Under the pieces are notes generated by a model. The model ran no database searches and was not told where the DNA came from. It saw only the letters and a program-made list of their open reading frames with translations. Position numbers and translations under genes: made by a program. From Micromonospora sp. CPCC 205371 (GTDB lineage Bacteria; Actinomycetota; Actinomycetes; Mycobacteriales; Micromonosporaceae): DNA of 46,173 nt. The stretch lies in assembly GCF_026130045.1 (NCBI RefSeq), contig NZ_JAIBNX010000002.1, positions 16,491 to 62,663 on the forward strand. Reading direction: 5' to 3'. How positions within the stretch are numbered: the first letter of the stretch is position 1; every line of letters starts with the position of its first letter. Below are positions 6,449 to 15,977 of the stretch, piece after piece.

Positions 6449-7666
6449 TCAGCTGAGCCGCAGCCGGGCGGCGCGGCCGGTGAGGTAGCGCTGTTCGGGC
6501 AGGTTGGCGGTCATGCGGGCGGCCCGCAGGTAGCAGGCGCGGGCCGCGGTGAGGTTGCCGGACTGTTCGAGCAGGTGGGCGCGGACGGCCTCCAAGCGGT
6601 GGGTGTGTGCCATCCGCTCGTCCGTGTCGAGGGTGCCGAGCAGGGCCAGGCCGGCGGTGGGGCCGTGGACCATGGCCAGGGCGACCGCGCGGCTGAGGGT
6701 CACGACCGGCCCGGGCTCGACGTCGGCGAGCAGGCTGTAGAGGGCGAGGATTTGCGACCAGTCGGTCTCGCCGGCGGTGGCGGCCTCGTCGTGGAGTGCG
6801 GCGATGGCGGCCTGGATCTGGTACGCGCCGATGGGACCGGTGCCCAGGGTGCGCGTCAGCAGGGACTGGCCCTCGGCGATCGCGGTGTGGTCCCAGCGGG
6901 TGCGGTCCTGGTCGGCCAGCGGCACGATCGACCCGTCGGCGTCGGTGCGGGCGGCACGGCGGGCGTCGGTGAGCAGCATGAGCGCGAGCAGCCCGGCGAC
7001 CTCGGGCTCGCGGGGCAGCAGGCGGTGTAGCAGCCGCGCGAGCCGGATCGCTTCCGCGGTCAGGTCGGCGCGGTGCAGGCTCGGCCCGGCGCTGGTCGCG
7101 TAGCCCTCATTGAAGATGAGGTAGAGCACGTGCAGCACGACGCCGAGCCGCCCCGCCCGCTCAGCCGCCGGAGGCAGCGTGAACTGTGACCCGGCGTCAC
7201 GGATCCGCTGTTTGGCCCGCCGGATGCGTTGAGACATCGTGTCTTCGGGGACGAGGAACGCGGCCGCGATCTCGGCGGTGCTCAGCCCGCCGACGGCTCG
7301 CAGCGTGAGCGCCAGTTGGGAGGGCGCCGACAGGACCGGGTGGCAGCACAGGAACAGCAGCACCAGCGTGTCGCCGTCCGCGACCGTGGCGCGCTCGGCC
7401 GGGTCGAGGGCGGCCTGCGCTTCCCGCCGCCGGCGGGCGCTGTCGGTGCGCCAGTAGTCGACCAGCGCCCGGGTCGCGACCGTGTACAGCCAGGCGCGGG
7501 GCCGCTCCGGGATGCCGCCGGCCGGCCATTGAACCGTGGCGGCCAGCAGCGCCTCTTGGACGGCGTCCTCGCAGGCGTCGAACTGCCCGTGCCGGCGGGT
7601 CAGCGCGCCGAGGACCTGCGGCGCGAGGTCACGCAGCAGGTCACCGAGCGCGGGCGTCGACGTCAT
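6449..7666 (-). CDS. ECF42-type RNA polymerase sigma factor with long C-terminal helical extension
   Basis: This 405-residue protein has sigma region 2 near 10-80 (FDACEDAVQEALLAATVQWP, RPRAWLYTVATRALVDYWR) and region 4 near 125-175 (LTLRAVGGLSTAEIAAAFLVPEDTM). About 220 further residues rich in helices include LYLIFNEGY and tetratricopeptide-like pairs. This long tail and a YCII/DGPF partner gene are known marks of the ECF42 group, which lacks a classical membrane anti-sigma factor. The ATG at 7666 overlaps the stop of the YCII gene by 4 bases, so the two are translationally coupled. The tail probably controls activity. A second copy of the module is at 23597-25172. Confidence 0.9.
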   Translation of the reverse strand: MTSTPALGDLLRDLAPQVLGALTRRHGQFDACEDAVQEALLAATVQWPAGGIPERPRAWLYTVATRALVDYWRTDSARRRREAQAALDPAERATVADGDTLVLLFLCCHPVLSAPSQLALTLRAVGGLSTAEIAAAFLVPEDTMSQRIRRAKQRIRDAGSQFTLPPAAERAGRLGVVLHVLYLIFNEGYATSAGPSLHRADLTAEAIRLARLLHRLLPREPEVAGLLALMLLTDARRAARTDADGSIVPLADQDRTRWDHTAIAEGQSLLTRTLGTGPIGAYQIQAAIAALHDEAATAGETDWSQILALYSLLADVEPGPVVTLSRAVALAMVHGPTAGLALLGTLDTDERMAHTHRLEAVRAHLLEQSGNLTAARACYLRAARMTANLPEQRYLTGRAARLRLS

Positions 7667-8028
7667 CGCTCGGGCGGCGCCGACTCGTCCATGATCCCCC
7701 GGACCTCCATCGGATACTCCGTGACGGCGACGACCTGGGATGCGATCTCCAGCGCCCGATCTCTCGTGGTCTCGACGATCCAGTATCCGGCCAGGGATTC
7801 CTTGATCTCGGCGAAGGGCCCGTCGGTGGGGGTCGGGGCGCCGCCGGTGAACCGGACGGTGGCGGCCTGGCTCGGGTCCATCAGGTGCTTGCCGTCCACC
7901 ACCTCGCCGGACTCGCGCAGCTCGCGGTCCATCGTCATCATGGTGGCCTGCATCCGGGAGATCCACTCCGGGCTTCGGTCGGCCAGCGACTCACCCAACC
8001 CACCGAACATCATGATCATGTACTTCAT
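7663..8028 (-). CDS. YCII-domain DGPF protein, partner of the ECF42 sigma factor
   Basis: This 121-residue protein starts MKYMIMMFGG and contains the family's TPTDGPFAEIKESLAGYWIVE motif near 70-90, from which DGPF is named. YCII domains are small ferredoxin-like alpha/beta folds often encoded beside ECF42 sigma factors. Their biochemical role is not settled. ATG 8028 is preceded by AAAGGGA, and an in-frame extension upstream to 8106 lacks family features. It is the first gene of a two-gene operon with the sigma factor. Confidence 0.9.
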   Translation of the reverse strand: MKYMIMMFGGLGESLADRSPEWISRMQATMMTMDRELRESGEVVDGKHLMDPSQAATVRFTGGAPTPTDGPFAEIKESLAGYWIVETTRDRALEIASQVVAVTEYPMEVRGIMDESAPPER

Positions 8029-8119
8029 CGTCGTCCCTTTCGTCCGGCGCCCACCACTCGGGCACTGACCCCAGGTCGGAGCCGGCACCCCGGTACCCGA
8101 CATCATCGACCCGGATTTT

Positions 8120-9136
8120 TCAGCCAGCCGGTAGTTGGACGACGAAACGGCATCCGCCGGTGATGTTGTCCACGCTCACCTGGCCGCCGTGCGCCTCGAC
8201 GAGTCCTCGCACGATGGCCAGCCCCAGACCGCCGACAGCGGCCTGGCCAGCCTCGCCGGGCGTGCGGGCCCGCTCGCCGCGAAACGCCACGTCGAAGACC
8301 CGGGGCAGGTCCGCCTCCGGGATGCCGCCGCAGGTGTCGGCGACCTCCAGCCAGACGCGGTCGCGGTCGCGGCCGCCGCTGATCCGGACCGTGCCGTCGT
8401 CGGGCGTGTACCGCACGGCGTTGATCAGCAGGTTGGCCACCACGCGGGCGAGCTCCGGCTCGCTGGCGTTGACGACCGGCCAGCCGCTGTGCGAGGTGAT
8501 CAGGCGGATGCGCCGGGCCTGGGCGATAGGTGCGGTGGCGGCGACGGCGTCGGAGACCACCTCGCCGAGCGGAACCGTCGAGATCGACAGGTTCAGCGCG
8601 CCGGCGTTGATGCGGGACAGCTCGAACAGGTCGTCGACGAGACGAGTCATCCGGTCGGTTTCGGTGCGGATGCGACGGTGGTACTCGGCCACCGTGGCAG
8701 GGTCGTCCACCACGCGGTCTTCGAGCGCCTCGGTCATGGCCCGCAGACCGGCGAGGGGCGTGCGCAGGTCGTGCGAGACCCAGGCGACCAGGTCGCGCCG
8801 GCCCTTTTCGAGCTGTCGTTCCCGCTCGCGGGCCTGTTCGGCCCAGACCGCGGCGGAGGCGAGCCGGCTGCCGAAGAACCACCCGACCGCGAGGCTGACG
8901 GCGGCGCCCGCGGCGACCGTGATCAGCACGACCTGCAGGTCGTGCGGTGACAGGAACATCGCCTCGGCGATCACGACGACGCCAGCGGTCACGGTGCCGA
9001 CGGTGATCACGACCAGCACCCAGATGTGGGCCATGATCGAGGCGCGGCGCAGGACGCGTAGCGCGACGGCACCGAGAGCGCCGACGGCCAGCGCGCCGCC
9101 GAGCGCGGCCAGGAAGATCAGCATCAGGTCGCGCAT
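8120..9136 (-). CDS. Sensor histidine kinase of a two-component system
   Basis: This 338-residue kinase has about three hydrophobic segments (near 5-25, 36-60 and 67-88), a short linker, then the dimerisation/phosphoacceptor helix VAWVSHDLRTPLAG with His122. The ATP-binding domain follows: N box LLINAVRYTP, G1 DTCGGIP and G2 GGLGLAIVRGLVEAHGG. There is almost no extracytoplasmic loop, so it may sense the membrane or an internal cue. The start codon follows the response-regulator stop by one base, so the pair is co-transcribed. The divergently placed epimerase and the shared CGTAAGG box suggest that the kinase governs the neighbouring sugar cluster. Confidence 0.93.
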   Translation of the reverse strand: MRDLMLIFLAALGGALAVGALGAVALRVLRRASIMAHIWVLVVITVGTVTAGVVVIAEAMFLSPHDLQVVLITVAAGAAVSLAVGWFFGSRLASAAVWAEQARERERQLEKGRRDLVAWVSHDLRTPLAGLRAMTEALEDRVVDDPATVAEYHRRIRTETDRMTRLVDDLFELSRINAGALNLSISTVPLGEVVSDAVAATAPIAQARRIRLITSHSGWPVVNASEPELARVVANLLINAVRYTPDDGTVRISGGRDRDRVWLEVADTCGGIPEADLPRVFDVAFRGERARTPGEAGQAAVGGLGLAIVRGLVEAHGGQVSVDNITGGCRFVVQLPAG

Positions 9137-9137
9137 G

Positions 9138-9830
9138 TCAGGCGGCCATCTCGTACCGGTAGCCGACGCCCCATACCGTGACGATGCGCCGGGGTGCCGC
9201 GGGATCGTCCTCCACCTTCTCGCGCAGCCGCCGGACGTGGACCGTGACGGTGGACTGGTCGCCGAAGTCCCAGCCCCAAACCCGTTCGAGCAGCTCGGCG
9301 CGGCGGAAAGCCCGCGAGGGATTGCGCATGAGAAACGCGAGCAGGTCGAACTCCCGTACCGTCAACGTCAGCTCCTCGCCACGCAGCCGCGCGACCCTGC
9401 GACCGGTATCGAGGACCAGGTCGCCGTCGACGAGCCTGGCGGCGATGCCCGGTGCGGCGTCAGCACCGGCGCGGCGCAGCACGGACTGCACCCGAAGCAC
9501 CAGCTCCCGCGGCGAGAACGGCTTGGTCATGTAGTCGTCGGCGCCGAGTTCCAGCCCGAGCACCCGGTCTGCCTCGTCGCCGAGGGCGGTGAGCATGACG
9601 ATCGGGATCTGGTCCGGGCGGGTCCGCAGCCGCCGGCACACCTCCAGCCCGTCGATGCCCGGCAGCATCAGGTCGAGCACCACCAGGTCGGGGCGATCGC
9701 GTTCGACGACGGCCAGCGCGCCGGCGCCGTCGGCCACCATGCCGACCTCGAAGCCGGCGAGCCGAAGGTACCGGCACACCACATCGCTCACCGTCGGGTC
9801 GTCGTCGACCACGAGTATCCGCTGCCCCAC
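9138..9830 (-). CDS. OmpR-family response regulator
   Basis: From GTG 9830 (230 residues) the receiver domain begins MGQRILVVDDDPT. It has the acidic pair at residues 9-10, the phosphoacceptor Asp53 (VVLDLMLPGIDG), the switch Thr in VMLTA and Lys in MTKPFSP. A winged-helix DNA-binding domain follows (LTVREFDLLAFLM, WGWDFGDQSTVTVHVRRLREKVE, TVWGVGYRYE). GTG 9830 is chosen because the fold starts there and because TAGGGT lies 7 bases upstream, giving a leaderless transcript. ATG 9875 would add 15 atypical residues. A CGTAAGG box lies 56 bases upstream, spaced as at the GT2 operon. Confidence 0.92.
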   Translation of the reverse strand: MGQRILVVDDDPTVSDVVCRYLRLAGFEVGMVADGAGALAVVERDRPDLVVLDLMLPGIDGLEVCRRLRTRPDQIPIVMLTALGDEADRVLGLELGADDYMTKPFSPRELVLRVQSVLRRAGADAAPGIAARLVDGDLVLDTGRRVARLRGEELTLTVREFDLLAFLMRNPSRAFRRAELLERVWGWDFGDQSTVTVHVRRLREKVEDDPAAPRRIVTVWGVGYRYEMAA

Positions 9831-9877
9831 ACGGCCAACCCTACGAGGGCGACCCGCGGCCAGGCAGTTGATCATCT

Positions 9878-9894
9878 ATTTCGGATCCCTTACG
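9878..9894 (-). promoter_or_regulatory. CGTAAGG box, predicted response-regulator site between the TCS and the epimerase
   Basis: Read on the minus strand, CGTAAGGGATCCGAAAT matches 13 of 17 positions of the box at 12366-12382. Its centre is 56 bases upstream of the response-regulator GTG (9830) and 49 bases upstream of the divergent epimerase GTG (9935), so it could serve both promoters. That it is bound by the neighbouring OmpR-type regulator is inferred. Confidence 0.55.
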
Positions 9895-9934
9895 TGATCG
9901 CCCAGGGAGGTGGTGTCGCACCTACCGTGGCGGT

Positions 9935-11017
9935 GTGCGAGTTCTGATCACCGGCGGTGCCGGTTTCGTCGGGTCACACGTCGCCGACGCCGTCGTCGCG
10001 GCCGGCCACGAGGCGGTGCTGCTCGACGCCCTGGTGCCGCAGGCACACGGCGGGCAGCCGCCGCTGTGGTGCGCCGAGCACGAGGTGGTGCGCGGTGACG
10101 TGCGAGACGCCGGCGTGCTGGCCGAGGCGCTGCACGGCGTGGACGCCGTCTGCCACCAGGCGGCGATGGTAGGGCACGGCGTCGACCCGTCCGACGCGCC
10201 GCTGTACGCCAGCCACAACGACCACGGCACGGCGGTGCTGCTCGCGGCCATGTACGCCGCGAAGGTGCGGCGCCTGGTGCTGGCCAGCTCGATGGTGGTC
10301 TACGGCGAGGGCCGGTACACCTGCCCGGCGCACGCGATCGTGCCACCCGCCCCGCGGCGGCAGCAGGACATCGCCGCCGGCCGGTTCGACCCGACGTGCC
10401 CACGGTGCGGTGCGACGCTGATGCCGGGCCTGGTGCCGGAGGACGCCCCGCTACAGCCGCGCAGCATCTACGCCGCCACGAAGGTGGCCCAGGAGCACCT
10501 GGCGGCGGCGTGGGCGGCGCAGTCCGGCGGCGAGGTCTACGCGCTGCGATACCACAACGTGTACGGGCCGCGGATGCCGCGCGACACGCCCTACGCCGGG
10601 GTGGCGTCGATCTTCCGGTCGGCGCTGGCGCGCGGGAACGCGCCGCGGGTCCTGGAGGACGGTGAACAGCGCCGCGACTTCGTACACGTGACCGACGTGG
10701 CGCGCGCCAACCTGCTGGCCTTGACCGCGCCACCGCCACCGGAGGGGTTCGCGGCGCTCAACATCTGCTCCGGTGAGCCGCACACGGTCGGAGATCTCGC
10801 ACGGGTACTCGCGGCCACGCTCGGCGGCCCGGAACCGATCGTGGTCGGCGGCGCCCGCACCGCAGACGTGCGGCACGTGGTGGCCGCACCGGAACGCGCG
10901 GCCGAGGTGCTGGGTTTCCGGGCCCGGGTCGGTTTCGCCGAGGGGGTCGCCGCGTTCGCGACCGATCCGCTGCGCGAGCCGGCAGCCGTCACCACCATGT
11001 CCACAGTAGATGGTTGA
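9935..11017 (+). CDS. NAD-dependent epimerase/dehydratase (extended SDR) with a Cys/His insert
   Basis: This 360-residue nucleotide-sugar epimerase-type protein has the glycine motif ITGGAGFVGSH (5-15), GDVRD (54-58), catalytic Ser near 118-119 (LASSMVVYGE), YAATK (Tyr179, Lys183) and RYHNVYGPRM (205-214). Between the catalytic Ser and Tyr there is an extra loop with C130-x2-H133 and C155-x2-C158, a possible zinc site not found in classical GalE or RmlB. The start is GTG 9935, with TACCGT 6 bases upstream and no ribosome site, so it is probably leaderless. Its last 29 bases overlap the end of the convergent membrane-protein gene. It probably makes a sugar donor for the nearby transferases. 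Confidence 0.9.
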   Translation: MRVLITGGAGFVGSHVADAVVAAGHEAVLLDALVPQAHGGQPPLWCAEHEVVRGDVRDAGVLAEALHGVDAVCHQAAMVGHGVDPSDAPLYASHNDHGTAVLLAAMYAAKVRRLVLASSMVVYGEGRYTCPAHAIVPPAPRRQQDIAAGRFDPTCPRCGATLMPGLVPEDAPLQPRSIYAATKVAQEHLAAAWAAQSGGEVYALRYHNVYGPRMPRDTPYAGVASIFRSALARGNAPRVLEDGEQRRDFVHVTDVARANLLALTAPPPPEGFAALNICSGEPHTVGDLARVLAATLGGPEPIVVGGARTADVRHVVAAPERAAEVLGFRARVGFAEGVAAFATDPLREPAAVTTMSTVDG

Positions 11018-12281
11018 CAGCGAGCGCGGTCGCCGCCTGGACGGCCAGCCAGACGCGCCGGTGCCGTTCCGGCAGGGCGGCCGTGGCGACCATCAGCCAC
11101 ACGACGAACGGCAGCCAGATCCGCTCGACCTCCGCCTTGCTGAGTCCGGACAGGTCCGCGGCCAGGATCGCCACCCCGGCCGCCACCGGTAGCCACCACG
11201 CCGCGCCGCGCGCGGTAGATCTCGCGGTGCGGAGCAGCGCCGGCCCGATGGCCGGACCGGCACACAGCACCAGCGCGGCGAGGTTGGCCCACACCCAGTA
11301 GGCGTACGGCCGTTCGGCGGCCCAGCCCTGGTAGTAGCGCTCGACGACCAGCCGGTATCCGTCGAGCCACCAGAAGCCGGCCGCGGTGAACGCGGCGACC
11401 ACCACGGCGACCCCGGCCGCTCCCCCGGCAAGCGCGGCGACCCGGTGCCGCGCGCGCAGCAGCAGCACCGCGAGCGCCAGCGGCCCCACGAGCACGAAGC
11501 CGTACGACAGGTACAGCGCGAAGCCGAGCAGCAGCCCGCTGAGCGGCGCCAGCCACCACCGCCGGGCGGCCAGCAGCGCCAGTCCGGCCGCCACCACGCC
11601 CGCGAAGATCGCGTCGGCGGAGGCACCCATCCACACCGCGCCGGGAAGCAGCACCAGAAACGGCAGCGCGGCCCGCGCCTGCGCCTCGGCTGCCAGGGAA
11701 CGCAGCGCGAGCGGCACCGACACCACGATGGTGGCGCCGGCCAGCACGCACGCAACCGCCGCCGGCCCGCCGCCGCCAAGGCCAACACGGTCGAGCGCGA
11801 CGAAGACCAGCAGGGCGCCGGGTGGGTGCCCGGCGGTGTGCGTCGACCACGACCCGGCCCGGAAGTCCAGGATGCGGTCGGTGAACCCGGACAACATCGC
11901 GCCGATGTCCGTGATCCGGGGCACCTCGGTCAGGTACTCGGCCTGCGGCGTGAGCCGCTCGGCGAGGCCGCCGGACCAGCCGTCGATCAGCGCCAGCGAC
12001 AGCGTCCAGGCGACCGCGGCGGCGTACGCCAGCGCAAGCAGCCGGCCCCAAGGCGCCCGCCGGGCGACATCCGCGCCCCGCCACACGACCGCGGCGGCGA
12101 CCGCCAACGCCGCCGCTGTGCCCCAGCCGGCGTGCGGTCGCCAGACCGCGAAGAGCGGCGCCGCGTCGGCCCACAACCGCACGTCCCGCGCGTTGAGCGC
12201 CGCCCCCACCGCGACGGCCGCGACGACGAGCGCGACCTCGACACCCAGTACGACCAGATCCGCACGCCTGTCCCTGCCCAT
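10989..12281 (-). CDS. Polytopic membrane protein resembling a GT-C glycosyltransferase
   Basis: This 430-residue protein has roughly ten to twelve hydrophobic helices and conserved-looking loops: WSTHTAGHPPGALL near 143-156 (first half, with acidic residues before it) and LSGLSKAEVERIWLPF near 385-400. This layout is seen in integral membrane mannosyl- and arabinosyltransferases that use polyprenyl-phosphate sugars outside the membrane. I could not match a named family with certainty. The gene is divergent from the GT2 operon, with 147 bases between the starts, and its tail overlaps the epimerase tail, so it belongs physically to the sugar cluster. Confidence 0.8.
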   Translation of the reverse strand: MGRDRRADLVVLGVEVALVVAAVAVGAALNARDVRLWADAAPLFAVWRPHAGWGTAAALAVAAAVVWRGADVARRAPWGRLLALAYAAAVAWTLSLALIDGWSGGLAERLTPQAEYLTEVPRITDIGAMLSGFTDRILDFRAGSWSTHTAGHPPGALLVFVALDRVGLGGGGPAAVACVLAGATIVVSVPLALRSLAAEAQARAALPFLVLLPGAVWMGASADAIFAGVVAAGLALLAARRWWLAPLSGLLLGFALYLSYGFVLVGPLALAVLLLRARHRVAALAGGAAGVAVVVAAFTAAGFWWLDGYRLVVERYYQGWAAERPYAYWVWANLAALVLCAGPAIGPALLRTARSTARGAAWWLPVAAGVAILAADLSGLSKAEVERIWLPFVVWLMVATAALPERHRRVWLAVQAATALAVNHLLWTWW

Positions 12282-12365
12282 GATGGCGGCCGACGCTACG
12301 CTCCCGCGACCGGCTCCGCACCCGCACCGGGCACACCGTCAGCGACTCGTAAGAACCACCGTGCC

Positions 12366-12382
12366 CGTAAGGATTCCGTAAG
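12366..12382 (+). promoter_or_regulatory. CGTAAGG box upstream of the GT2 operon
   Basis: CGTAAGGATTCCGTAAG contains CGTAAG twice with an 11-base start-to-start step, the spacing expected for tandem binding by an OmpR/PhoB-type dimer. A third CGTAAG lies at 12348-12353. The box centre is 55 bases before the ATG at 12429. TACGGT at 12417-12422 stands 6 bases before that ATG and TTGTCC at 12391-12396 could be a -35 element. The same box precedes the response-regulator gene. Confidence 0.6.
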
Positions 12383-12428
12383 CGGCGGGCTTGTCCCCGA
12401 CGGTCCACTGCCGACCTACGGTGCCGTT

Positions 12429-13085
12429 ATGGACGGGTACGTGGACGTGGTTCTGCCCTGCCTGGACGAGGCGGCGGCGCTGCCGGGTGTACTGGCCGGC
12501 ATGCCGGCAGGCTTCCGGCCCATCGTGGTCGACAACGGCTCGACGGACGGCTCCCCACAGGTCGCCGCCGACCTGGGAGCAACGGTCGTGCACGAGCCCA
12601 GGCGCGGCTACGGCGCCGCCGTGCACACCGGCTTGTCGGCCGCCACCGCCGACGTGGTGTGCTTTCTGGACGCCGACGGCTCGCTCGACCCGGCCGAGCT
12701 CACCCCGCTGGCCACCCTCGTCGCAACCAACCGCGCGGATCTGGCCGTCGGGCGGCGCGTCCCGGTCGGGCGCGCGGTGTGGCCGTGGCACGCCCGCGCC
12801 GGCAACGCGCTGCTGGCCGCGCTACTGCGCCGCCGCGGCGTACCGGTGCACGACATCGCCCCGGCCCGCGCCGCCCGCCGCCAGGCGCTACTCGACCTCG
12901 GCGTGGTCGACCGGGCCTTCGGATACCCGTTGGAACTGTTGCTGCGAGCCGGTGCGGCGGGTTGGCGGATCGCCGAGCGCGACGTGGCGTACCGCCGCCG
13001 CGCCGCCGGCACGCGCTCGAAGGTCTCCGGGTCGGTCCGCGGCACCGTGCGCGCGGTCCGCGACATGGCCGGGGTACTGCGGTGA
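12429..13085 (+). CDS. Family 2 glycosyltransferase
   Basis: This 218-residue GT-A protein begins with VVLPCLDEAAALPGVL and VVDNGSTDGS. It has the nucleotide-sugar/metal motif DAD at 81-83 (FLDADGSLDP) and a basic C-terminal part (YRRRAAGTRSKVSGSVRGTVRA) typical of dolichol-phosphate mannosyltransferase-like enzymes. It has no C-terminal membrane helices. It probably transfers a sugar from an NDP donor to a lipid or small acceptor; the sugar is unknown. ATG 12429 is probably leaderless. Its stop overlaps the GTG of the next gene, which opens a run of five coupled genes. Confidence 0.9.
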   Translation: MDGYVDVVLPCLDEAAALPGVLAGMPAGFRPIVVDNGSTDGSPQVAADLGATVVHEPRRGYGAAVHTGLSAATADVVCFLDADGSLDPAELTPLATLVATNRADLAVGRRVPVGRAVWPWHARAGNALLAALLRRRGVPVHDIAPARAARRQALLDLGVVDRAFGYPLELLLRAGAAGWRIAERDVAYRRRAAGTRSKVSGSVRGTVRAVRDMAGVLR

Positions 13086-13747
13086 TCGTCCTCGTAGTCG
13101 CCAAGGCGCCCGTGCCCGGTCAGGTCAAGACCAGGCTCTGCCCGCCAGCGACGCCTCGGCAGGCGGCCGACGTCGCCGCGGCCGCGCTGCTGGACACCCT
13201 CGACGCGGTACGGGCCACCCCCGGCGTCACGCCGGTTCTGGCGTACACCGGCAGGCTGTCCGGAGCCGAACGCTCCGGCGAGATCCGGTCCGCCCTGGCC
13301 GGCTGGCACCTGATACCGCAGCGCGGCGCGACATTCGCGGACCGGCTGGTCCGGGCGCACGCCGATGCCGCCGCGCACGCGCCCGCGCGCCCGGTACTGC
13401 AAATCGGCATGGACACGCCGCAGGTACGCCCCGCCACACTGGCCTCCACACTGGACCGCTTGCGAGCGGCCGAGGCGGTCCTCGGTCCAGCCGCGGACGG
13501 CGGCTGGTGGGCGCTCGGCCTGCGCGACCCGCGCCACGCCGAGGCGCTGCGCGCGATACCGATGTCCACATCGGAGACCGGACGGCTGACCCGCGAAGCG
13601 CTCACGGCGCGCGGGCTGAACGTCTCGGGCGCGCCGACGCTGTCCGATGTGGATGTGTGGGACGACGCGCTGGCCGTGGCCGCCGCGGCACCCGGCGGCC
13701 GGTTCGCCACCGCCGTGGCCGAACTCAGCGCGGGAGCCGCCCGATGA
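13082..13747 (+). CDS. DUF2064 / TIGR04282-type nucleotidyl- or glycosyltransferase-like protein
   Basis: This 221-residue GT-A-like protein begins IVLVVAKAPVPGQVKTRLCP (family motif PxxGxVKTRL). It has IGMDTPQVRPATL near 116, where most relatives have GSDxPxL with the metal-binding Asp, and LGPAADGGWWALGLRD near 140. Databases call related proteins arsenosugar biosynthesis glycosyltransferases because of a cyanobacterial pathway. Many actinobacterial copies have no arsenic link, so that name should not be taken as function. GTG 13082 overlaps the GT2 stop (GTGA), and its own stop overlaps the methyltransferase ATG. Confidence 0.88.
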   Translation: MIVLVVAKAPVPGQVKTRLCPPATPRQAADVAAAALLDTLDAVRATPGVTPVLAYTGRLSGAERSGEIRSALAGWHLIPQRGATFADRLVRAHADAAAHAPARPVLQIGMDTPQVRPATLASTLDRLRAAEAVLGPAADGGWWALGLRDPRHAEALRAIPMSTSETGRLTREALTARGLNVSGAPTLSDVDVWDDALAVAAAAPGGRFATAVAELSAGAAR

Positions 13748-14382
13748 CGGCAGGCTTCGACCCGGCGTACGCCGGACGCGGCGCGGCCCGATGGCTGGTG
13801 GACAGCGGTGGCCGGCGCGTCCGGCTGCCGCTGCGACGATGGCACGGGCCGGCCGAGCCCGCCGTGCGAGCGCTGGTCGACCTGTGCACCGGCCCGGCCG
13901 TCGACGTCGGCTGCGGACCCGGCCGGGTAGCTGCCGAGCTCGCCGCCCGTGGACTGATCAGTTTCGGGATCGACACCTCACCGGCGGCTGTCCGGCTGAC
14001 CCGCCGGCGCGGCGCGGCCGCCTTGCGCCGGGACGTGTTCGACCCGCTACCCGGCGAGGGCCGGTGGACGAACATCCTGCTCGTCGACGGCAACATCGGC
14101 ATCGGCGGCGACCCCAGCGCGCTGCTGCGCCGCTGCGCGCAGCTGCTGCGCCGGGGCGGCACCGTGCTGGCCGAGCTGGACGCACCCGGCACCGGCGTGT
14201 GGCGCGGCCTCGCGCACGTGACCCACGAACGCATGACGGCGCCACCCGCGCGCGGCGCACCGTTCCGTTGGGCCAGGGTCGGCGCCGACGCGGTTCACGG
14301 GCTCGCCGCCGGGGCCGGCCTGCGCGTGCGGGCTGTCTTCACCCTGGACGGGCGCTGGTTCGCCGAGCTGGAAAAGCCATGA
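13744..14382 (+). CDS. Class I SAM-dependent methyltransferase
   Basis: This 212-residue protein has the SAM-binding motif I AVDVGCGPGRVAAELAARG (about 52-70), an acidic residue ending strand 2 (FGIDTSPAAV) and motif III-like LLRRGGTVLAELD near 138-150. The first 40 residues (AYAGRGAARWLVDSGGRR) look like a substrate lid. There is no arsenite-methyltransferase Cys triad, so it is not ArsM. It is coupled by 4-base overlaps to the DUF2064 gene and the molybdo-oxidoreductase, suggesting it methylates the product of the two transferases. Confidence 0.9.
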   Translation: MTAGFDPAYAGRGAARWLVDSGGRRVRLPLRRWHGPAEPAVRALVDLCTGPAVDVGCGPGRVAAELAARGLISFGIDTSPAAVRLTRRRGAAALRRDVFDPLPGEGRWTNILLVDGNIGIGGDPSALLRRCAQLLRRGGTVLAELDAPGTGVWRGLAHVTHERMTAPPARGAPFRWARVGADAVHGLAAGAGLRVRAVFTLDGRWFAELEKP

Positions 14383-15488
14383 GGCTCCGCCCGCCCCGGC
14401 CGGAGGACTTCCGCTCCCCCGCGCACACGCCTGCCGTCGCGGCGCGGATCGGGCTGTGGCTGGGGGTGGCGTTCACGGTCTGCTTCCTCACCGGCCTGCT
14501 CAGCCATGCCGCCCAGCACCCGCCGGGCTGGTTCACCTGGCCGACCCGGCCGGTCAGCCTCTACCGGATCACCCAGGGCGCCCACGTGATCTCCGGCGTC
14601 GCCGCGATCCCGCTGCTGCTGGCCAAGCTCTGGAGCGTGTACCCGCGCTTGTTCATCCGTCCGCCGTCGCGCCCGCCTGGACGGGCAGTGGCGCACGGCG
14701 CCGAGCGCCTGTCGATCCTGGTGTTGCTGTGCGCGGCCTTCTTCGAGCTGGCCAGCGGCCTGTTCAACGCCGTCCAGTCGTACCCGTGGCGGTTCTTCTT
14801 CGTCGAGACCCACTATGCCGCTGGCTGGATCGCGGCGGGCGCGCTGGCTGTCCACATCGGAGTCAAGCTGCCCCGCATCGGCGGCGGTCTCGGGGAGCGG
14901 CCCGATCCGCGGCGGCGGGCCTTCCTGCGCATCGCCTGGCTGTCCACCGGCGCCGCCGTGCTCGCCACGGCCGGCGGCACGGTGCCCTGGCTCAGCCGGG
15001 TCTCCGTGCTTGCCTGGCGGTCGCCCGGCGGGCCGCAGGGGCTGCCGGTCAACCGCACCGCCGCCGCGGCCGGAATCCAGGTCCCGGCGAACTGGCGACT
15101 GGCCATCACCTGGCCGGGCGGCACCGCCGAGCTGACCCTCGACGAACTTGCTACCCTCCGCCAGCGCACCGCCACCCTGCCGATCGCCTGTGTCGAAGGC
15201 TGGAGCGCCACCGCGACCTGGACCGGCGTGCCCGTGCCCGATCTGCTGGCCGCCGTGGGCGCTCCCACCCGGCGCGCGATACGAGTGTCCTCGTTGGAGC
15301 AGTCTGGCCTGTACGCGACCAGCCTGCTGCCACCCGCACACACCGCCGACCCGCTCACCCTGCTCGCGTTGCGCGTCAACGGCGAGGTTCTCAGCGCCGA
15401 CCACGGCTTCCCGTGCCGGATCATCGCACCCAGCCGCCCCGGCGTGCTGCAGACCAAGTGGGTGACTCGCCTGGAGGTGCTGGCATGA
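14379..15488 (+). CDS. Membrane molybdopterin oxidoreductase: cytochrome b-like domain fused to a sulfite-oxidase-type Mo domain
   Basis: Residues about 22-165 of this 369-residue protein form four hydrophobic helices with His43, His69, His145 and His159, placed to bind b-type haem. A fifth helix near 184-202 is followed by a domain that should lie outside the membrane. This domain resembles the SUOX/YedY fold, with the predicted Mo-ligating Cys271 in LPIACVEGWSATATWTG, and SLEQSGLYATSLLP and DHGFPCRIIAPSRPG further on. Such enzymes oxidise or reduce small sulfur, nitrogen or peptide-bound groups. The substrate here is unknown, and the haem domain would link it to the quinone pool. It overlaps its neighbours by 4 bases on each side. 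Confidence 0.88.
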   Translation: MRLRPPRPEDFRSPAHTPAVAARIGLWLGVAFTVCFLTGLLSHAAQHPPGWFTWPTRPVSLYRITQGAHVISGVAAIPLLLAKLWSVYPRLFIRPPSRPPGRAVAHGAERLSILVLLCAAFFELASGLFNAVQSYPWRFFFVETHYAAGWIAAGALAVHIGVKLPRIGGGLGERPDPRRRAFLRIAWLSTGAAVLATAGGTVPWLSRVSVLAWRSPGGPQGLPVNRTAAAAGIQVPANWRLAITWPGGTAELTLDELATLRQRTATLPIACVEGWSATATWTGVPVPDLLAAVGAPTRRAIRVSSLEQSGLYATSLLPPAHTADPLTLLALRVNGEVLSADHGFPCRIIAPSRPGVLQTKWVTRLEVLA

Positions 15489-15907
15489 AAGCGGTGCCGA
15501 TCGCGCGGGCCACGCTGGTGCTCGGCGGCGCCGCCGTCACCGGATACGGCGGCTGGCTGCTCTGGCCGCAGCTTCCGGCCGCCTGGACGTGGCTGGTGGC
15601 CGGGCCCATCCTCCACGACGCCGTCGTCGCCCCGGCCGTCGGTGTCGCCGGGCTCACCCTCGGCCGGCTCATACCCGACCCGGCCCGGCGCGCCTGGGTC
15701 GCAGCCGGCCTCACCATCTCGGCCGTACTGGTCCTGGTCGCGCTTCCGCTCCTGTGGCGGCCTCAACCGGCACCGATCAACCCCGGACTACACGACCGCG
15801 ACTACGTCCAGGGCCTCATCGTGGCGCTGTTCGCCATCTGGGCCGGTGTCGCCGTCGCTGCGGCAAGCCGCCCGCGTCACCGGAGGGGCGACCGCGACCC
15901 CGGTTAG
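15485..15907 (+). CDS. Small four-helix membrane protein, last gene of the GT2 operon
   Basis: This 140-residue protein has hydrophobic segments near 7-27, 33-60, 70-92 and 107-126. Charged residues cluster in loops (GRLIPDPARR, NPGLHDRDYVQG) and at the C-terminus. I do not recognise a named family. ATG 15485 overlaps the oxidoreductase stop, so it is made with that protein and may be a partner subunit or assembly factor. The stop codon directly abuts a long inverted repeat, which probably ends the transcript. Confidence 0.8.
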   Translation: MKAVPIARATLVLGGAAVTGYGGWLLWPQLPAAWTWLVAGPILHDAVVAPAVGVAGLTLGRLIPDPARRAWVAAGLTISAVLVLVALPLLWRPQPAPINPGLHDRDYVQGLIVALFAIWAGVAVAAASRPRHRRGDRDPG

Positions 15908-15977
15908 GGCCTGTATCAAAGTGGGGGCCGGAGCGAGGCGGCCCGCCGCAGCCCGGTCATCCACTTTGATACAGGCC
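15908..15977. terminator. 17-base perfect inverted repeat between convergent genes, probable bidirectional terminator
   Basis: GGCCTGTATCAAAGTGG (15908-15924) is exactly complementary to CCACTTTGATACAGGCC (15961-15977), with a 36-base GC-rich loop. It begins right after the small membrane-protein stop and ends on the stop codon of the convergent MarR gene. There is no T tract. The mixed-sequence stem is unlike a simple GC terminator and may be a dispersed repeat. Confidence 0.7.

Follow-up and report, generated by a model that had tools for sequence, protein, structure and literature searches.

Which genes answer to the two-component system encoded in a 46,173-nucleotide stretch of contig NZ_JAIBNX010000002.1 from Micromonospora sp. 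CPCC 205371 (the window, by which we mean the whole stretch analysed), and through what operator? In this locus the genes of an OmpR/PhoB-type response regulator and a sensor kinase lie on the minus strand, an epimerase gene is divergent from them, a gene for a membrane protein lies on the minus strand, and a five-gene operon headed by a GT2 glycosyltransferase gene is divergent from the latter. A sequence-only reading had proposed that a shared CGTAAGG box links the regulator to the epimerase gene and the operon. The box is a direct repeat in 11-bp phase, CGTMAG-N5-CGTAAG, and is represented in the window as follows:

12366..12382, plus strand: GT2 box, CGTAAGGATTCCGTAAG
9878..9894, minus strand: box between the divergent regulator and epimerase genes, CGTAAGGGATCCGAAAT, its second half degraded (CGAAAT)
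12337..12353, plus strand: second box of the GT2 promoter, CGTCAGCGACTCGTAAG, distal to the first, 29 bp further upstream

We read these boxes as predicted operators of the adjacent regulator, which would control the GT2 operon, the epimerase gene, the divergent membrane protein gene and its own operon; the probability of this reading is, in our estimation, about 0.82.

The measurements behind the shared-box account were confirmed. The first two boxes agree at 13 of 17 positions, and their centres (12374 and 9886) lie 55 bases from the GT2 ATG (12429), 56 from the regulator GTG (9830) and 49 from the epimerase GTG (9935). The boxes of that account stood, with corrections: the second GT2 box and the divergent membrane protein gene had been missed, and the regulator box has one degraded half. 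Within the window, the bare heptamer CGTAAGG occurs 3 times against 2.1 expected, which is the chance level. A degenerate 17-mer with up to three mismatches gave 4 matches against 0.6 expected, and none of 100 shuffles reached 4, but two of the four are matches by construction because the pattern was made from those two boxes.

Conservation and phasing of the repeat

The pattern CGTAAG-N5-CGNAAG was sought with at most one mismatch upstream of the genes in 60 relatives' regions plus the window. It was found at 31 of 61 regulator genes, 14 of 20 epimerase genes, 13 of 21 GT2 genes and 7 of 20 divergent membrane protein genes, against simple-shuffle expectations of 0.2, 0.1, 0.1 and 0.05, respectively. 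The corresponding counts for the other genes were 1/60 (kinase), 1/21 (DUF2064), 0/21 (methyltransferase), 2/20 (molybdoenzyme) and 0/6 (small membrane protein). The box thus recurs in many of the relatives' orthologous clusters, and on this point the earlier proposal was not refuted. The divergent membrane protein (10989-12281) is a further probable member of the regulon. Gene order varies among the genomes, with GT2 frequently outside the regulator's region, and at one rearranged locus (L066), the DUF2064 case counted above, an exact box lies between a DUF2064 gene and a regulator gene that face each other. Of 121 family genomes, 97 gave a regulator match, a count too low by at least one because G006 was missed; an epimerase homologue (E 1e-90 or better) is carried by 132 of 296 genomes of the class.

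A de novo motif search returned the same repeat from 78 regulators and from 44 GT2 genes and 42 epimerase genes that have no regulator in their region. Its identity thresholds were 50% for regulator, GT2 and epimerase and 40% for the others, and a duplicate region (L132) and a GT2 gene at a region edge (that of L100) were excluded. Upstream sequences of the DUF2064 and kinase genes gave different motifs, which we took as neighbouring coding sequence.

The phasing was examined by a spacer scan, from which upstreams of 100 bases or less were left out, as were L233-L236 from the named regulator group. The N5 spacer was the most frequent everywhere (7/78 regulators, 22/81 GT2 genes and 18/79 epimerase genes), and backward patterns numbered 0 in all groups; this dominance of N5 bears out the 11-bp step that had been proposed as OmpR-type. 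Other spacers were rare. Among the family GT2 genes a spacer of 12 was seen in 6/81 and spacers of 22 and 23 in 4 and 9, all of which fit paired boxes, whereas a spacer of 15 (3/81 family GT2 and 2/79 epimerase genes) is left without explanation. Same-strand box pairs 26-31 bp apart, with up to two mismatches, were present in 28/81 family and 26/74 named GT2 upstreams, against 0 in the backward controls, so the 28-29 bp pairing is recurrent among relatives. Named loci, which still include Micromonospora and of which L235 repeats the family locus L176, had sites with at most one mismatch in Micromonospora, several Pseudonocardiaceae-type genera, Rhodococcus rhodnii, Herbidospora and Streptomyces. 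Motif, phasing and conservation are in this sense established.

Box position and the predicted sign of control

Each of the four genes behind the boxes has a hexamer close to its start codon. Three of these had been noted before, and their distances were confirmed:

9838..9843, minus strand: -10-like TAGGGT, 7 nt before the regulator GTG
9923..9928, plus strand: -10-like TACCGT, 6 nt before the epimerase GTG
12417..12422, plus strand: -10-like TACGGT, 6 nt before the GT2 ATG
12298-12293, minus strand: TAGCGT, 11 nt before the membrane protein ATG

TANNNT starts at -17..-11 were counted 139 times over 159 epimerase upstreams (1.5 expected), 54 times over 155 GT2 upstreams (2.2 expected) and 33 times over 122 regulator upstreams (3.1 expected). 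A hexamer beside the start codon is the layout of leaderless actinomycete promoters, and its recurrence here suggests that these genes have such promoters.

Box positions relative to the start codons, approximate because gene starts in other loci were assigned by homology, fall into clusters. GT2 sites, all in sense orientation, are most frequent at -63 to -65 and at -89 to -94, and fewer lie at -40 to -44. Those of the epimerase genes, which run the opposite way with few exceptions, are concentrated at -67 to -71; a handful lie at -57/-58, where the window's own site falls, or at -98/-99. Because the boxes are regularly placed upstream of a conserved start-proximal hexamer, we infer activation. 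The opposite sign, in which the bound regulator represses these genes, is unlikely: OmpR-family regulators act either way, the sign is not readable from sequence alone and the GT2 sites at -40 to -44 would extend into the -35 region, but most boxes begin at about -57 to -94, upstream of the hexamer, and their positions cluster at the peaks just given.

The regulator behind the boxes

Activation by a regulator leaves the question of which regulator it would be. The exact pattern CGTAAG-N5-CGNAAG, selected after inspection of the box and of its relatives, occurs once in the 9.36-Mb genome, namely as the GT2 box, and exact CGTMAG-N5-CGTAAG occurs twice, both times upstream of GT2. The strict form is thus confined to GT2 and not scattered randomly through the genome, a second point on which the shared-box account was not refuted. 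With one mismatch allowed, the genome gave 46 matches and the backward control 79; such loose matches within a single genome are therefore noise. A set of 25 genomes (the window's own, four others of its genus and 20 relatives whose cluster genes lie in the region of the regulator) had 32 strict sites and 8 backward-control hits. Matched by coordinates, 22 of the 32 lie at promoters of the cluster or of the regulator, which establishes the link to this gene set, one lies before a molybdoenzyme gene (G004, below), and 9 lie elsewhere, about chance. A wide regulon was considered and is unsupported, both by the one-mismatch counts and by these 9 sites.

Single sites beyond the common targets were recorded in three genomes. 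In G004, of the same genus, a membrane molybdoenzyme gene is preceded at 43-59 nt by an exact CGTAAG-N5-CGTAAG box (L133:9204-9220). No GT2 was found in that genome, and a search for the L133-type molybdoenzyme in 21 of the regulator-bearing family genomes without a GT2 match (E 1e-30) gave 1/21, G004 only. In G118 an exact box (L134), one of the 9 sites elsewhere, starts 51 nt before an in-frame ATG of an open reading frame (7439-9262, minus strand) with DsbD-type membrane and thioredoxin-like domains, and this box may be a chance occurrence. In G001 a box identical to the window's GT2 box (L131:9821-9837), accompanied by more 11-bp-spaced repeats, precedes what appears by eye to be an aminotransferase gene, with an adenylation-domain gene adjoining; we have no explanation for it.

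An indication of which protein reads the box comes from its co-occurrence with the regulator in 77 of the 82 GT2-bearing family genomes (five were left out). Of the 70 genomes that have the regulator, 43 had a box at GT2 or epimerase; of the 7 that lack it, 0 did (Fisher p 0.002, a value that takes no account of shared ancestry). The backward pattern was found in 1 of 77. At two mismatches the figures were 54/70 and 1/7, with backward hits in 10/77. The seven absences come from a second analysis; of the 70 presences, 68 come from the family-wide regulator search and two, G006 (missed by that search) and G025, are genomes with fragments that were scored as present. The box and the regulator are therefore jointly absent, and since the box is missing where the regulator is missing, this regulator rather than a paralogue is indicated. 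Among 80 named loci, 44 have a linked regulator, and a box was present in 31 of these; it was also present in 10 of the 36 unlinked loci, 'unlinked' meaning that no regulator match lies inside the fetched region.

The two fragmentary cases are peculiar in themselves. G006 has only a C-terminal fragment of the regulator beside the cluster (L214:1498-1872) and G025 only an N-terminal one (G025:C1:693087-693467), both with boxes ahead of the target genes; sequencing error and decay are both compatible with this state.

The regulator protein matched PF00072 (receiver) and PF00486 (winged-helix DNA-binding), and a kinase match was found in its region in 60 of 61 regions. In 23 sequences D53 and K103 are invariant and T81, D10 and D11 nearly so; we take these to be the phospho-acceptor aspartate and the switch residues. 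Among 25 listed of 102 NCBIfam matches, the regulator stayed under the equivalog cut-offs of PhoB, OmpR, BaeR, CseB, VanR and others. MtrA as the regulator's own identity was ruled out: it scored 229.8 bits with the MtrA model NF040689, for which the cut-off is 300, and a separate, true MtrA gene in the same genome scored 377 bits.

That second gene makes MtrA the chief candidate for another explanation, namely that a different OmpR-family regulator reads the boxes and that the local two-component system is a mere neighbour or a co-target. MtrA of Streptomyces coelicolor likewise reads short direct repeats with a five-nucleotide separation, but its repeat has AC in place of AAG (PMC5650626). 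Moreover, genomes without this regulator keep other OmpR-family members and yet have the box in 0 of 7 cases (no search was aimed at MtrA there), and the box also precedes this regulator's own gene, in the 31 of 61 regions given above. Taken together, we consider control by such a paralogue improbable, somewhat more so than repression.

Several observations weigh against assigning the boxes to the local regulator. (i) Its own box in the window is weak, with the second half-site degraded to CGAAAT, and the boxes at relatives' regulator genes face either direction. (ii) The GT2 and epimerase motif sets overlap, 17 of 42 shared loci having overlapping upstream windows, and the one-mismatch matches of the window's genome are not enriched over their control. 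(iii) At one mismatch or fewer, 27 of 70 genomes with regulator and cluster are boxless, and 16 of 70 still are at two; the same holds for 13 of the 44 named loci with a linked regulator, including Pseudonocardia, Frankia and Geodermatophilaceae, and the 10 of 36 loci with a box but no linked regulator point the same way, as far as the fetched regions extend. (iv) No site with at most one mismatch was found at the listed Pseudonocardia, Actinomycetospora, Frankia, Modestobacter, Blastococcus and Geodermatophilus loci, and at some of these the regulator adjoins the cluster. (v) A single genus supplies three of the seven regulator-less genomes, and the sole member of that genus with both regulator and GT2 is boxless as well; moreover, one genome among the seven has a completeness of 86%.

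A chance likeness of two promoters in a GC-rich genome, which would suit the chance-level heptamer in the window and the genome-wide noise of one-mismatch matches, is practically negligible, being refuted, in our reading, by the spacer scan and the co-occurrence of regulator and box, and opposed by conservation across many genera and several families, by the phasing and by the backward controls.

The predicted pathway and known systems

Control by the local regulator would work as follows. A dimer would read two half-sites, CGTMAG and CGTAAG, 11 bp apart. The stretch that separates the GT2 operon from the divergent membrane protein gene would hold two dimer sites at a distance of 28-29 bp, and the one that separates the regulator and epimerase genes a single site. 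Once the membrane histidine kinase is triggered, the regulator would be phosphorylated and most likely bind immediately upstream of the leaderless promoters, where it would activate the five-gene GT2 operon, the epimerase gene, the divergent membrane protein gene and its own operon. The regulon would in essence be a single pathway that comprises sugar chemistry and a membrane molybdoenzyme. The genes concerned are:

9138..9830, minus strand: response regulator, OmpR/PhoB type, receiver and winged helix (Pfam Response_reg, Trans_reg_C), GTG start
8120..9136, minus strand: sensor histidine kinase (HisKA, HATPase_c), N-terminal membrane region with short loops by hydropathy
9935..11017, plus strand: nicotinamide adenine dinucleotide (NAD)-dependent epimerase/dehydratase, GTG start, Cys-containing insert
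10989..12281, minus strand: multi-pass membrane protein (hydropathy), divergent from GT2 and sharing the double box with it
12429..13085, plus strand: GT2 glycosyltransferase, weakly dolichyl-phosphate-hexose-transferase-like, ATG start
13082..13747, plus strand: DUF2064 / TIGR04282-like protein
13744..14382, plus strand: S-adenosylmethionine-dependent methyltransferase
14379..15488, plus strand: membrane molybdopterin oxidoreductase, Oxidored_molyb domain at residues 236-368
15485..15907, plus strand: small membrane protein (hydropathy), last gene of the GT2 operon

Genes of the GT2 operon overlap by 4 nt at every junction. The GT2 protein has no membrane segment by hydropathy, and neither of the two membrane proteins (10989..12281 and 15485..15907) matched a Pfam or NCBIfam family. 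The protein at 13082..13747 passed the DUF2064 Pfam cut-off and failed that of TIGR04282 (122.1 bits, cut-off 134). The molybdoenzyme did not reach the NCBIfam equivalog cut-offs of MsrP, SorA, SorT or SoxC and matched only the general Pfam molybdopterin domain. Since the hydrophobic segments of the kinase are confined to residues 6-87 (hydropathy), its signal may be perceived in the membrane. The best named matches of the epimerase are from Micromonospora in 11 of 15 cases, and the cysteines C130, C155 and C158 of its insert are invariant in 17 aligned sequences; the insert is perhaps a metal site. Further features border the genes listed: a perfect 17-nt inverted repeat with arms 36 nt apart (15908-15977), a candidate terminator or element end, lies between the operon end and a MarR-type gene, and a sigma-70-like protein with a DUF6596 domain (6449-7966) and a YCII-domain open reading frame (7663-8106) are found just past the kinase gene.

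Because the conserved box fronts both gene sets and is missing in the few regulator-less relatives, a single small signalling system most likely governs a single, still uncharacterised pathway, and this pathway probably makes or repairs an envelope component. More tentatively, and in our view doubtfully, the system, spread over several actinomycete families, might be a dedicated sensor for an undescribed envelope pathway that couples lipid-linked sugar transfer to the membrane molybdoenzyme, and hence a circuit that controls redox chemistry on a surface glycan or glycolipid; the molybdoenzyme is placed at the core of this idea because of the molybdoenzyme box of G004 and the DsbD/thioredoxin-type box of G118. 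In any case, an unnamed two-component system gains a defined predicted operator along with a small set of targets and a promoter open to testing, and uncharacterised but widespread actinomycete genes are tied into one regulated pathway, for whose function the conditions that induce the promoter offer a direct route.

The mechanism is an ordinary OmpR-type one, of a kind already known, whereas no description of the regulon or of its pathway came to light: among the open-licence papers listed by the searches, none appeared from its title and abstract start to treat the regulator with these genes. Likewise, a term search of the main text of a review of Streptomyces coelicolor two-component systems returned no words starting with epimerase, glycosyl or molybd (PMC9739842).

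The nearest known systems can be compared in turn. By sequence, the closest solved chain to the regulator is 2oqr (220 bits), RegX3 of Mycobacterium tuberculosis, so that SenX3-RegX3 is the nearest system with a structure, orthology being judged here from the structure search alone. The RegX3 operator is a GTTCA-type repeat, unlike the box described here. CutRS of Streptomyces resembles the present system in being an actinomycete two-component system with few target promoters, but differs in its secretion-stress targets and in the published CutR consensus, TAWATAAA, by which a CutR-type motif was ruled out (PMC12802291). Similar in design is the operator of MtrA, an OmpR-type regulator on short direct repeats five nucleotides apart, which at whiI occupies two sites, -69 to -53 and -43 to -27, paired as they are here; it differs in the AC of its half-site and in targets that include the developmental genes bldD and whiI (PMC5650626).

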